A stretch of 35,785 bases of DNA from a virus: the IMG/VR virus record IMGVR_UViG_3300025632_000040, positions 1 to 35,785 of that record. One strand, written 5' to 3'. Each line of letters starts with the position of its first letter. Position 1 is the stretch's first letter. Shown piece by piece: positions 5,609 to 22,000 of the stretch. The translations under genes were made by a program, and so were the position numbers. Below the pieces are notes generated by a model. It was given only the letters and a program-made list of their open reading frames with translations. It did not search any database and was not told the DNA's origin.

Positions 5609-6711
5609 AGAACACTTTTGATTTCATCGTACAGAAACTCTTGTATCTCTTTGTTCTCTTTTATGAATTTACTCAGGTTCGCCATACCTTGAAACTTAAA
5701 GAATTTCTCTAGAGCTTCTTGATTTTTTGCGTCTACTTCGTGTTTTTTCAGTAGCGATAAAATTCTTTTGTCTTCAGATCCTATAGCAGATGATACGGTG
5801 TACCAAGCGCCAGCTTGTTTAATAAAGGTTAGTTCGTTTGCTATTTCACAAAGTTCTCTAACCTCATCAATGCCTGTTCCATACTTGATATAGGATACAG
5901 CGTTTGAGTTAGGTTTACCTCCAGACGCAGAGGTTTTTACTAGCCAGTTAGCAACCTGACCTACATCGTGACCATTCTCGTCTGTCTCTTCCCACTTGCC
6001 CCTGTGGGTAATTACCATGTTGGTTCCAGCTTGATACTGAATCATGTTTCCTCCATCTGCCATTTTAGCGGGCGACCATCTTGAACCCCCTGTGTTAGCT
6101 ATGTTGTGCAAGATGCAAACCAGCATAGCTCTTGTTCTTGAAACATCATTAGAAATTCTTTTGAAAAACATGGAGTTTAGGCGAGGTAACTGATTCCTGA
6201 CACCTGTCCGAATCTCACCATCTAATTCGTCTTGGGGGACCATGCTAGAAGATGAGTCTACAATTCCAAAGAAATCTGGTGTATTTTTGACGTAGGTTTC
6301 TATTACATTTAAAAAGGTTTCTGCTGACACTACAGGTTGAGCATCTGTAGCTTGGACAATCTTAATTTTTTCTACATCTAAACCTTTAATACCTTTGAAG
6401 TTTTCTTTTGTTAGCCTACCCTCTGTATTAAAATAGACAACAGTTTTGCCTGCTTGTTGAGCCTTTGCCGCAGCATAAAGCGCCGTGGTTGTTTTTCCGG
6501 TCTTGGGGTCGCCAGCCATCAAGGTTACACTACCCTCTCTTAGTCCACCGCCTAGCGCTAGGTCTAAGGCTGGAGAGATTGATAGGGTTTGGAAATTTTC
6601 TAGATCTTTAAGCACCTTTGTGCCTTCTTCTACAATGTCTCCATATTTTTTAATAATCCCATTGCTTACAATGTCGTCTTCAAATTTATTCTTGGCTTTC
6701 TTCTTTGCCAT
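5605..6711 (-). CDS. UvsX/RecA-like recombinase
   Basis: A 368-residue RecA-fold ATPase. Walker A is GDPKTGKTT at 67-75. A Walker B-like strand FFGIVDSSSSMVPQDEL lies near 145-160. The segment GGNMIQYQAGTNMVITHRGKW matches the RecA/UvsX L2 and beta-strand region. It forms filaments on ssDNA and drives strand exchange for repair and recombination-dependent replication. GAGGATTAGACA before the ATG supplies a ribosome site. The gene order recombinase, nuclease, helical protein, zinc ribbon, helicase, primase forms a compact replisome operon. Confidence 0.87.
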   Translation of the reverse strand: MAKKKAKNKFEDDIVSNGIIKKYGDIVEEGTKVLKDLENFQTLSISPALDLALGGGLREGSVTLMAGDPKTGKTTTALYAAAKAQQAGKTVVYFNTEGRLTKENFKGIKGLDVEKIKIVQATDAQPVVSAETFLNVIETYVKNTPDFFGIVDSSSSMVPQDELDGEIRTGVRNQLPRLNSMFFKRISNDVSRTRAMLVCILHNIANTGGSRWSPAKMADGGNMIQYQAGTNMVITHRGKWEETDENGHDVGQVANWLVKTSASGGKPNSNAVSYIKYGTGIDEVRELCEIANELTFIKQAGAWYTVSSAIGSEDKRILSLLKKHEVDAKNQEALEKFFKFQGMANLSKFIKENKEIQEFLYDEIKSVL

Positions 6712-7141
6712 TGTCTAATCCTCTAAGTTTGTTTAGTCCAGATTTCTTTCCGTAAGATTTCTTCCTAGTCTTTGCTTCTTTCTTTACGTCTAATTCCTGA
6801 TTAGGTTTCTTGTCTTCTTCTTCTATTATTTTTTTCTGTTTAATTATTTCTGGGACAAGACGTTTGTTCTTTAGAGAGAACACGGATTTTTGATTAGCAA
6901 CCGCCTTTAGTACAGCTTTCTCGCCGTACTTCTTTATTAGACTATTTGCAGCAAACATTTGCTGCTTAAAAGTCCAATCCCAAGGTTTCTTGTTCCAGAA
7001 TTTATATGTAAGATTGCCTTCGTTCTTGTACTCTGCTAGGCGAAGACACATCATTTCCGCCAAATAAGAAGCGCATGTGCAATGATCACCAGTTGTTTGG
7101 TGTTTATACTTACTCTTGTCTGTTCTCTTTCGTTTTGTCAT
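6686..7141 (-). CDS. Hypothetical basic protein, 151 aa
   Basis: The open frame extends to an ATG at 7183, which would overlap the upstream gene by 74 bp. I prefer the ATG at 7141 (MTKRKRTDKSKYKH), which reduces the overlap to 32 bp; the choice is uncertain. A short region CTCASYLAEMMCLRLAEYKN, then FWNKKPWDWTFKQQMFAANSLIKKYG, looks like the folded core. The C-terminal third is Lys/Glu-rich and probably disordered. It overlaps the recombinase start by 26 bp. No family recognised. Confidence 0.7.
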   Translation of the reverse strand: MTKRKRTDKSKYKHQTTGDHCTCASYLAEMMCLRLAEYKNEGNLTYKFWNKKPWDWTFKQQMFAANSLIKKYGEKAVLKAVANQKSVFSLKNKRLVPEIIKQKKIIEEEDKKPNQELDVKKEAKTRKKSYGKKSGLNKLRGLDNGKEESQE

Positions 7142-7535
7142 AGATGATTGCTTCTTCAAAACAGTTTTCAATTTCATCTTCATATTCTTTATCTAATACA
7201 AGTTCTGGTGTAATCCACATTTTTTTAGAGACATTAGACCCTTTTACTAAACCAATCGTGTAGTATTCTTTAGAGTCTGAGCCTAATGCACCCAGCAATG
7301 ATCTAATTAAATAGACACCATCTACCGCATCGCTTATATCTATAGTAGCCTTATGAGAGCGATATTGCAAGTACAATTCTAATAAAAATAAATCTTCTTC
7401 ATCACACTTGGCTTTTAACTCTCTCCATCCTTCAAATTTATCATAGTTAAATTCTTCGCCATTTGTTAGCTTACACCTAATCCAAACCGCTTGTTTATTT
7501 TTTCTATAGTCTTTCAACCATTTTTCCCTATCCAT
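7110..7535 (-). CDS. Hypothetical protein, 141 aa
   Basis: A soluble acidic protein starting MDREKWLKDYRKNKQAVWIRCKLTNGEEFNYD. GGAGATAG precedes the ATG. The pattern resembles a compact mixed alpha/beta protein, with no catalytic motif and no membrane segment. It is one of four small genes between PhoH/FmdB and the recombinase. Function unknown. Confidence 0.72.
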   Translation of the reverse strand: MDREKWLKDYRKNKQAVWIRCKLTNGEEFNYDKFEGWRELKAKCDEEDLFLLELYLQYRSHKATIDISDAVDGVYLIRSLLGALGSDSKEYYTIGLVKGSNVSKKMWITPELVLDKEYEDEIENCFEEAIIYDKTKENRQE

Positions 7536-7536
7536 T

Positions 7537-7857
7537 CTATCTCCTTATGGAAGTTGTACACTCACTTCTTTTTCCTAAGAACTGTGATTTTTTTCTGAAA
7601 TCATCTGAAATTGTAGATCCATTTTCTGTCATTACCGTAGAACCTCTACTGGAAGGTATTTGAGATGCTAGGTGTGTAGGCTCTTTTTTTTGTTTAGTGT
7701 CTTCTGTGTTCTTTTTCTTTTTTTGACACTTGCTGGCATAGGCTTTAACTACACTTTTTGCTCTATCTAAATCTGACGATAGTACATCTAGATCTACGTC
7801 ACAGTTGTTTTCTATGTAAAATTTTTCTATCTTACTTAATGGTCCTCGTTTACTCAT
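7537..7857 (-). CDS. Hypothetical protein with helix-turn-helix-like N terminus, 106 aa
   Basis: Residues 1-45 (LSKIEKFYIENN ... VLSSDLDRAKSVVKAYAS) have the helix spacing of a small helix-turn-helix. The middle is Lys/Glu-rich. The C-terminal part contains STVMTENGSTISDDFRKKS, which looks like a conserved linear motif. The start overlaps the preceding gene by ATGA and has AGGAG upstream. It could be a DNA- or polymerase-binding regulator; that is inference from shape only. Confidence 0.7.
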   Translation of the reverse strand: MSKRGPLSKIEKFYIENNCDVDLDVLSSDLDRAKSVVKAYASKCQKKKKNTEDTKQKKEPTHLASQIPSSRGSTVMTENGSTISDDFRKKSQFLGKRSECTTSIRR

Positions 7858-8176
7858 TTATAAATCTCCTGTTTGTCCTTGTTAAATAAATTGAATTTTT
7901 TGTTTGTAAGTAAATTAAATAAAAATCGAATGTGTCTTTTGACACTCTTTTAAGTTTTGTTTCTAAGTAATTTTCTCTAGTTGCCGCTGACCCCATAGGA
8001 TCAAATGGTTGGTTTTGATAAATTTTTATTAAGTATGTTTTATCTTTTTCAGATTCTACAATTTTTGCGTATGTTTTTTCTTTACCTTGAGAAACAGTTC
8101 CGTTCTTATTAAAATCTATCTCCTTTTTTATATTTATTTCTTGCATATTTTTTGTATCTTCGTTTATGTACTTCAT
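7850..8176 (-). CDS. Hypothetical protein, 108 aa
   Basis: A Lys/Glu/Asn-rich small protein starting MKYINEDTKN. The C-terminal half (KTYLIKIYQNQPFDPMG ... FDFYLIYLQTKNSIYLTRTNRR) looks beta-rich. It is coupled to the FmdB-like gene upstream by a 4-bp overlap and to the following gene by an 8-bp overlap. No motif recognised. Confidence 0.7.
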   Translation of the reverse strand: MKYINEDTKNMQEINIKKEIDFNKNGTVSQGKEKTYAKIVESEKDKTYLIKIYQNQPFDPMGSAATRENYLETKLKRVSKDTFDFYLIYLQTKNSIYLTRTNRRFINE

Positions 8177-8526
8177 CTTCCCTCCATGATGTATTTAGTT
8201 TTTTGATTCTCTGACATTTTATTTATATCTTTCAAAGACTTATCTCCCTGTTTATGATGCCAAGGTTTTTCTGGTGGAGGATTCTTTTCTTTTTTCATAG
8301 CCTCCATCTCGTTTATCTTATTTTTATTGGTGCGAGTGTTCTTATCTGCAATGCTACCTATTGTGTTGCTACCCGCCATGAAACTGTGAAGCCCGCCTGT
8401 AACAACCCTGTAAAGTCCGCTTGTTCCACAAGCCTCACATTTTTTTAACTCTGGGTCTGTAACTTTTTGAAACACGTCAGTTACTTCTGCTCCACAGTCT
8501 TTGCATTCGTAATCATATATCGGCAT
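8173..8526 (-). CDS. FmdB-family zinc-ribbon protein
   Basis: A 117-residue protein starting MPIYDYECKDCG, the hallmark of the FmdB/CxxC_CxxC_SSSS family. Cys8, Cys11, Cys30 and Cys33 would bind one zinc. The rest is charged and low-complexity, ending in a Lys-rich tail. FmdB-like ribbons are common in phages as putative regulators, but their biochemical role is not established. The ATG overlaps the PhoH stop. Confidence 0.85.
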   Translation of the reverse strand: MPIYDYECKDCGAEVTDVFQKVTDPELKKCEACGTSGLYRVVTGGLHSFMAGSNTIGSIADKNTRTNKNKINEMEAMKKEKNPPPEKPWHHKQGDKSLKDINKMSENQKTKYIMEGR

Positions 8527-21215: not shown

Positions 21216-21288
21216 TGACCCTACGGGAACTCGAATCCCGATTGCCGCCGTGAAAGGGCGGTGTCCTAACCGATTAGACGATAGGGCC
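21216..21288 (-). tRNA. tRNA-Glu (anticodon UUC)
   Basis: A 73-nt cloverleaf. The acceptor is GGCCCTA with TAGGGTC; the anticodon arm is CCGCC-CTTTCAC-GGCGG with anticodon TTC; the T-arm contains GGGATTCGAGTTCCC. Discriminator A, CCA not encoded. It lies four bases after the tRNA-like element and before the 81-aa gene's ribosome site. Confidence 0.92.
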
Positions 21289-21292
21289 GCAA

Positions 21293-21368
21293 GTGAGTGA
21301 CGGGATTTGCACCCGCGAATCTAGTCTTGTCGATCTGTCTAATCGCTCTAGGCTTCCGACTTCACTCA
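21293..21368 (-). tRNA. tRNA-like element, non-canonical or decayed
   Basis: The ends pair perfectly as a 7-bp acceptor stem (TGAGTGA with TCACTCA), preceded by a T-arm CGGG-TGCAAAT-CCCG. The D side has the normal CTAGAGCG text, but no standard anticodon arm forms. The only 7-nt-loop hairpin in the right place is CGAT-TAGACAG-ATCG, which lacks U33. The total of 76 nt is right for a tRNA. It may be a degenerate gene, an unusual D-armless tRNA or a tRNA mimic. The T-loop starts TGC instead of TTC, as does the T-loop of the neighbouring tmRNA. Confidence 0.4.
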
Positions 21369-21389: not shown

Positions 21390-21625
21390 GCCCCGTTTGG
21401 ATAATAAGGACGAGGCGACTCCCCAGACAGCTTACGCTGCCAATGCGAGACTTTCATCTGCAATTAAAAGGTTGATAGATTTTTAACGTAGCCCTTCTAT
21501 CAACTACGGCATGAGATACATTACGTCATATTGTATGTCGAATCTAAGTCATCCCCGTAAGTGGAGATGGAGGGAATTGCACCCTCGTCCATGACAACAT
21601 CAATAATAATCTTTATACATGCTTG
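21390..21625 (-). ncRNA. ssrA: Circularly permuted (two-piece) tmRNA
   Basis: Minus strand, transcription order. The acceptor piece comes first: an AAGCATGTA block at about 21615-21624, then T-arm GAGGG-TGCAATT-CCCTC (21570-21586), acceptor strand CATCTCC (21563-21569) and discriminator A. A five-base linker CTTAC follows. Then the coding piece starts GGGGATGACTTAGATTCGACA, the classic tmRNA 5' text; GGGGATG pairs with CATCTCC over 7 bp. CATGC (21509-21513) pairs with GCATG (21618-21622) as P2. PK1 is an H-type pseudoknot: CGTAG/CTACG and TTGATAG/CTATCAA (21472-21508). The tag frame 21432-21461 encodes ADESLALAA then TAA, with the stop in a GTAA loop of P5 (GGCAGC/GCTGTC). A 3' hairpin lies at 21390-21416. 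It rescues stalled ribosomes and tags products for proteolysis. Piece ends are inferred. Confidence 0.9.
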
Positions 21626-22000
21626 TTAAAATGGCCCATCGTCTGCGCTATCATGAAATCTTGTGATAGCTTTCTCTAACGCTCCCTTAAACTTACCTGT
21701 AACAACATAAGAAAAACTACCGTCTGCTTCCACCATCTGCTCTAGCATCCCTTGGTGAAACATCATAAACAATTCTTCGCCAACATATTGCATGGCGACT
21801 TCTTTCATTTTTAGTATTGATGGCTTATCGTTCATTTCAAATTTCATTATGTTAAAGGAAACGCTTTCTGATTCTGGTCTTATATTCTCCACTTTATTCA
21901 AGTGGGACTTTGCTTTTCTCATAGTATCATACACGCCAAGTGGCTCAGAAACAACTCTTTCAGGCGTACTAATCAACATTTCTAATAAATATACTGTCAT
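21626..22000 (-). CDS. Hypothetical protein, 124 aa
   Basis: A soluble protein starting MTVYLLEMLISTPERVVSEPLGVYDTMRKAKSHLNKVEN. AAAGGA precedes the ATG. It is probably a small alpha/beta domain; no motif recognised. Its stop codon immediately abuts the 5' boundary of the tmRNA acceptor piece, so its mRNA and the tmRNA precursor are probably one transcript that RNase processing would separate. Confidence 0.7.
   Translation of the reverse strand: MTVYLLEMLISTPERVVSEPLGVYDTMRKAKSHLNKVENIRPESESVSFNIMKFEMNDKPSILKMKEVAMQYVGEELFMMFHQGMLEQMVEADGSFSYVVTGKFKGALEKAITRFHDSADDGPF

Follow-up and report, generated by a model that had tools for sequence, protein, structure and literature searches.

The window (the whole stretch of DNA analysed, an IMG/VR virus contig of 35,785 bases) carries a complete permuted tmRNA gene on its minus strand, at 21622-21390. 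Its transcript reads acceptor piece, linker, coding piece. The gene, its parts and its immediate neighbours are as follows:

21626..22000, minus strand: upstream open reading frame with no assigned function; its stop codon and the acceptor piece are 3 bases apart
21562..21622, minus strand: acceptor piece, first in the transcript (RF04321 match, stem pairing, covariation), made up of the P2 3′ strand, GGAC, the T-arm, CATCTCC (21569-21563) and the discriminator A (21562)
21586-21570, minus strand: T-arm of the acceptor piece, GAGGG-TGCAATT-CCCTC
21557..21561, minus strand: linker CTTAC (from sequence), the unoccupied form of a site that holds an endonuclease gene in relatives
21390..21556, minus strand: coding (mRNA-like) piece, whose 5′ end GGGGATG is the acceptor 5′ strand
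21472..21508, minus strand: PK1, an H-type pseudoknot, CGTAG/CTACG and TTGATAG/CTATCAA (alignment helices 5 and 6)
21432..21461, minus strand: tag frame ADESLALAA followed by TAA, resume codon GCA (ARAGORN)
21426..21441, minus strand: P5 hairpin GGCAGC-GTAA-GCTGTC with the stop codon within the loop (from sequence)
21390..21425, minus strand: 3′ terminal H-type pseudoknot GCCTCGT/ACGGGGC (by eye, no score)
21216..21288, minus strand: tRNA-Glu (TTC), a downstream member of this RNA cluster

The coding piece thus comprises, in order, GGGGATG, P2, PK1, the tag, P5 and the 3′ pseudoknot. The match to RF04321 reaches 21432; the pseudoknot that extends the piece to 21390 was read from the sequence, and its pairing is kept in relatives with other letters (GCCAGT/ACTGGC and GCCCGT/ACGGGC, by eye). 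CCA is absent from the encoded acceptor piece. Because the stop codon of the upstream frame lies only 3 bases before the acceptor piece, the two are probably co-transcribed and the RNA made from an operon. The contig also carries phage replication and nucleotide genes, and the bearer of the tmRNA is a large marine tailed phage.

Between the tmRNA and tRNA-Glu lies a further RNA-like element of 75–87 bases (21294-21368, minus strand), with a tRNA-type acceptor stem (TGAGTGA/TCACTCA) and a T-arm, no usual anticodon arm, and no call from ARAGORN or Rfam. It recurs in L082/L103, L108 and L109, and is conserved in three contexts; a hairpin within it is variable in L108, and covariation is slight. 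The element has no match among isolated phages. In L094 and L095 its place is occupied by tRNA-Asn.

Identity and integrity of the tmRNA gene

The gene is confirmed as a permuted tmRNA. Against the Rfam family for such genes (RF04321, tmRNA_permuted) the window scores 89.4 bits, the gathering score being 47 (E = 4e-16), and ARAGORN calls a tmRNA* with the tag ADESLALAA. The acceptor half lies upstream of the coding half and is joined to it by a linker, the tag frame ends in a stop codon, and the acceptor stem is of the alanine type, with a G3-U70 pair that is invariant in 18 of 18 sequences. All pairs form in both the acceptor stem (7/7) and the T-stem (5/5). The preliminary description, which had placed a permuted tmRNA of two-piece architecture at 21390-21625, was right as to coordinates and order; the 7 bp acceptor stem, T-arm, PK1 and P5 with its GTAA loop are seen as it drew them, the tag is the one that ARAGORN reads, the five-base linker CTTAC is real (21561-21557, minus strand), and CCA, not being encoded, must be added. 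It had also looked to the alphaproteobacterial, betaproteobacterial and cyanobacterial tmRNA models for support. Here the outcome was divided: the window lies well over the RF04321 threshold, but by threshold it belongs to none of the three subtypes, the older betaproteobacterial model giving 73.8 against its own cut-off of 84. Some relatives do pass the alphaproteobacterial model (51.5–67.8, threshold 50).

Covariation was assessed on 18 related phage tmRNAs, aligned with the linker removed and with a structure derived from the window. In this alignment 86.7% of 834 cells are paired, and both sides have changed in 23 of the 47 pairs. The covariation score is 0.383 compared with 0.190 in shuffled alignments, none of 500 shuffles scoring as high, and it falls to 0.098 or less when the partner strand is slid out of register; the preliminary description had made its reading depend on covariation in the paired segments of related phages, and such covariation is there. 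Compensatory changes occur in every helix group. The acceptor stem is paired in all 18 sequences, the T-stem covaries at all five of its pairs, and the two PK1 helices (5 and 6) are paired in 95.5% and 91.3% of cells, with compensatory changes; the distal P2 helix (columns 9–13) is weak, with 50% paired. The tags of relatives are the same or alike (ADESLALAA, AEETLALAA, AEPSFALAA, VEENFALAA), and tag and resume region are both conserved among divergent relatives. A nucleotide search of isolated phages with the window tmRNA returned short matches to other tmRNAs and to tRNA-Glu only.

Could the gene nonetheless be a functionless pseudogene or a captured fragment? That would fit a T-loop (TGCAATT) without the conserved TTC, an acceptor end without encoded CCA, and phage records in which no SmpB gene was found. 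Against these stand the complete pairing of acceptor and T stems, the compensatory changes seen in all helix groups, the invariant G3-U70 pair and the conservation of tag and resume region in divergent relatives, and we consider a pseudogene most improbable. A second alternative is that the two-piece RNA acts as a decoy, titrating SmpB or alanyl-tRNA synthetase and so blocking trans-translation in the host. Such a role has been proposed for the tag-less form of phage DS6A, for which the tRNA-like domain is enough to inhibit tmRNA (PMC4131195), and the lack of an SmpB gene in the phage records is in keeping with it. A decoy would, however, have no need of the tag frame, the P5 stop codon or PK1, and these are kept, PK1 with compensatory change; on present evidence a decoy role would be improbable. 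The sequence points to a tmRNA gene that is intact and probably functional.

The T-loop deserves separate mention: GGCAGTA or TGCAATT replaces the near-universal TTCRANN in the window and in L094, L095, L098, L113, L120 and L121. Several T-loops in the group are without the usual TTC.

Endonuclease genes in tmRNA linkers

Two features that the preliminary description had singled out, a phage copy as a rarity and a minimal linker as distinctive, do not bear scrutiny. A count in 2021 found 53 two-piece tmRNAs in some 18,000 phage genomes (PMC9004378), and a pattern scan of IMG/VR, requiring that the bases after the linker carry a TTCGAC-type motif, recovered at least 85 loci with signatures of short-linker permuted tmRNAs, their linkers running from 4 bases up. 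The same pattern gave 71 in bacterial genomes; Prochlorococcus is one of these, its linkers six bases long (CTATTT, for example). Linkers of 4–9 bases are common: dozens of viral contigs have them, as do bacteria, and novelty on either count is ruled out. Longer linkers also occur: in L096 the linker takes up the 127 bases that precede G1 (1687) and consists of a GTTGGGTCAGGGTTCCCA...ACGAG...AAAACCCA unit in two imperfect copies.

What sets the group apart is found in relatives of the window. In L082 the coding piece has no adjoining acceptor piece; this lies ∼600 bases upstream, and the space between holds a gene of 182 codons that ends within the acceptor 5′ strand GGGGGTGA. Ten distinct related loci carry such a gene, HNH/endonuclease VII-like and of ∼180 codons, in the same linker, and of the ten relatives of the gene first found in viral contigs eight occupy this place in permuted tmRNA genes. 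A profile search added further copies in permuted linkers (L128-L130, L136), others directly 3′ of standard tmRNA genes (L132/L133 and L137; 108.5 and 127.9 bits) and one, in L135, that overlaps, in the opposite orientation, a match to a group I intron that abuts a tmRNA match. The standard tmRNA of L137 (1041-1444) has, according to ARAGORN, a tag of 32 residues (AKNINSVVSGIDALLAKANKVVAARKSAAVFA), the usual length being 10 or so.

The closest hits among isolated phages are to crAss-like phages: cr56_1, MT835588, cr128_1 and cr6_1 (L140, L141, L142 and L143), in which the endonuclease gene is on the strand opposite to the tmRNA. In cr56_1 and MT835588 it sits in a permuted linker, the acceptor TAGCTCC pairing with GGGGCTA, and the tags end DYTRLVA and NYSRIAA. 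In cr128_1 (standard order) and cr6_1 (permuted order) it sits in a group I intron of the T-loop. Two relatives (cr60_1 and cr52_1) lack the endonuclease at their annotated tmRNA genes. Neither ARAGORN nor Rfam (at E 0.05) called the tmRNAs of the four crAss-like phages, three of which are permuted; tags among crAss-like tmRNAs include DYTRLVA and DYTRIAA. That of cr6_1 is apparently both permuted and intron-bearing, a form absent from the tmRNA database paper.

All eight members first collected match PHROG 3322, an endonuclease family (best E 1e-28), and endonuclease VII families are matched too. Conserved motifs are C-x2-C...C-x3-C and SLDRID...GY...N. A Pfam search gave no match and a PDB profile search weak, chance-like matches only; the AlphaFold model was poor (mean pLDDT 52). 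The insert is, by sequence, a putative homing endonuclease of HNH/endonuclease VII-like type. An alignment scan of bacterial genomes found no copy, and there is none in the window or in its sister record of 162,690 bases (G003). The window holds the empty allele, and its linker, by comparison with its relatives, appears to be a vacant homing site.

The insertions might also have no bearing on the tmRNA at all: a plain phage permuted tmRNA with a short linker, in an intergenic spot that tolerates chance arrivals. Permuted tmRNAs are common among phages and short linkers are no rarity; HNH genes abound in phages, and tmRNA genes sit in RNA clusters tolerant of insertions. But with identical phages counted once, each of the 17 distinct full-length relatives with an identity of at least 34% adjoins or sits in a tmRNA gene: in the linker of a permuted gene, directly behind a standard one or in a group I intron. 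They do so on both strands and in unrelated phages, the crAss-like among them. Six more distant or partial HNH relatives (L111, L112, L138, L139, L144, L145) lie away from tmRNA genes. Together with the restriction of altered flanks to the stretches nearest the insert (below), these distributions make chance insertion unlikely. In a tree of the family three non-tmRNA rows fall outside and the other three sit, without resolved position, on long branches, so the tree does not establish that the tmRNA habit arose once.

Occupied genes score 26–62 bits against the Rfam permuted model, mostly under the cut-off, so some of them could be decaying. Acceptor and T stems are nevertheless paired in L104, L105, L107, L108, L110 and L128 (computed) and in L103, L106, L109 and L136 (by eye). 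For annotation this is a warning: when the linker is occupied, most permuted tmRNA genes score too low for the Rfam cut-off, and ARAGORN misses them.

One occupied-linker contig, L082, carries two adjacent DUF1501-like genes (5730-8236), one of them confirmed by Pfam. The DUF1501 family is typical of planctomycetes, and the tags are like those of planctomycetes. Genes and tags together hint at a planctomycete host; the genes in L082 are possibly a host signal or possibly a contig join.

Proposed homing and processing, and a possible control loop

Occupied and empty alleles can be compared at the same site (L103 and L104 with the window and L095; cr56_1 with cr60_1 and cr52_1). Downstream of the insert, occupied L104 is near-identical to empty L095 except where the coding piece begins, over ∼22 bases; upstream, its identity to the window is high until ∼33 bases before the end of the acceptor piece. 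From PK1 downstream, L103 and the window are identical over a stretch exceeding 150 bases, but they diverge near the insert. Differences lying mainly beside the insert are what homing with co-conversion would be expected to leave: in homing, repair of the break leaves short flanks replaced together with the insert (PMC2988022). Since both tRNA-like halves closely flank the gene, transfer would bring matching acceptor halves along. Most occupied linkers also contain a second CTCCA-like copy ∼20 bases past the true acceptor end, perhaps a trace of the original insertion. The odd T-loops GGCAGTA and TGCAATT belong to empty alleles of the group, and alleles of this kind might resist the endonuclease.

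The best joint explanation, and one that we consider likely, is that the window encodes a functional permuted tmRNA with an empty linker, and that this linker is a target of homing endonucleases dedicated to tmRNA. In the folded transcript the linker would cap the acceptor stem as a hairpin loop. Cleavage by RNase P at G21556 would set the coding piece free, and the acceptor piece would be shortened to A21562 by a 3′ nuclease and completed by the CCA-adding enzyme. Acceptor stem and P2 would hold the two pieces together, and the RNA would be charged with alanine through G3-U70 and work with SmpB of the host, which would be needed because no SmpB gene was found in the 20 phage records searched. 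The steps of maturation, charging and SmpB use are modelled on known tmRNA biology. In related phages the HNH/endonuclease VII-like gene would be excised from the precursor, between the two pieces, by the same processing, so insertion need not harm the tmRNA. Occupied alleles have T-arm and acceptor halves of their own beside the gene, as would be expected if the endonuclease cut the empty gene and its own gene were copied in with its flanks.

The position of the stop codon raises a further hypothesis. In all ten sense-strand linker copies the endonuclease gene ends 5–22 bases inside the coding piece, past G1 and thus beyond the expected RNase P cut, and processing of the tmRNA should remove the stop codon from the message. 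Maturation would then leave a non-stop endonuclease message, a substrate for rescue by the very same tmRNA. Compact gene ends could give the same pattern of stop codons. The fuller proposal, in which a phage homing endonuclease family dedicated to tmRNA genes of any form hides in the processed linker and has its non-stop message tagged by the tmRNA whose gene houses it, is offered tentatively. If true, a selfish gene would be controlled by the rescue RNA in which it lives.

Relation to known systems

Much of this is familiar. The two-piece phage tmRNA and the short linker are already known, and taken alone the window gene is of an ordinary kind. Genomic islands and group I introns are also known to integrate at the tmRNA gene. 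What is new, as far as the literature searched shows, is the permuted linker as the home of an endonuclease family dedicated to tmRNA: no earlier report of an endonuclease in such a linker was found (subscription papers and preprints lay outside the scope of the search). A single nuclease family tied to three forms of the tmRNA gene makes the conserved tRNA-like end look like a lasting target of selfish DNA, and the permuted form would seem to offer, in its processed linker, an intron-like refuge that needs no splicing. Pairs of occupied and empty alleles in close phages make homing, flank replacement and the non-stop loop directly testable.

In piece order, tRNA-like domain and tag frame, and with a score well above the cut-off, the window gene resembles the permuted tmRNAs of RF04321 (PMC11915505); it is phage-borne, does not encode CCA and has the T-loop TGCAATT and the tag ADESLALAA, yet stays within the family. 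The Melnitz phage and the Pelagibacter phage Mosig (PMC9004378; L146) likewise represent permuted tmRNA in marine tailed phages. Mosig has a linker of 47 bases in which CCA is encoded; the phage lineage is a different one, and no endonuclease is reported.

For the endonuclease two comparisons apply. In T4-like phages, free-standing homing endonucleases of the HNH and GIY-YIG types (PMC2988022), SegB at the tRNA cluster in particular, are likewise intron-less genes beside a conserved RNA target, with flanks that are replaced together with the insert, whereas the gene described here, known by its sequence, lies inside an RNA gene, is predicted to be excised by processing and is confined to tmRNA genes. 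Endonuclease genes of the LAGLIDADG type live in tmRNA genes too, in 23 of 844 group I introns (PMC11915505); they belong to another nuclease family, and the present one is found in addition, without an intron, in permuted linkers and on the 3′ side of standard tmRNAs.
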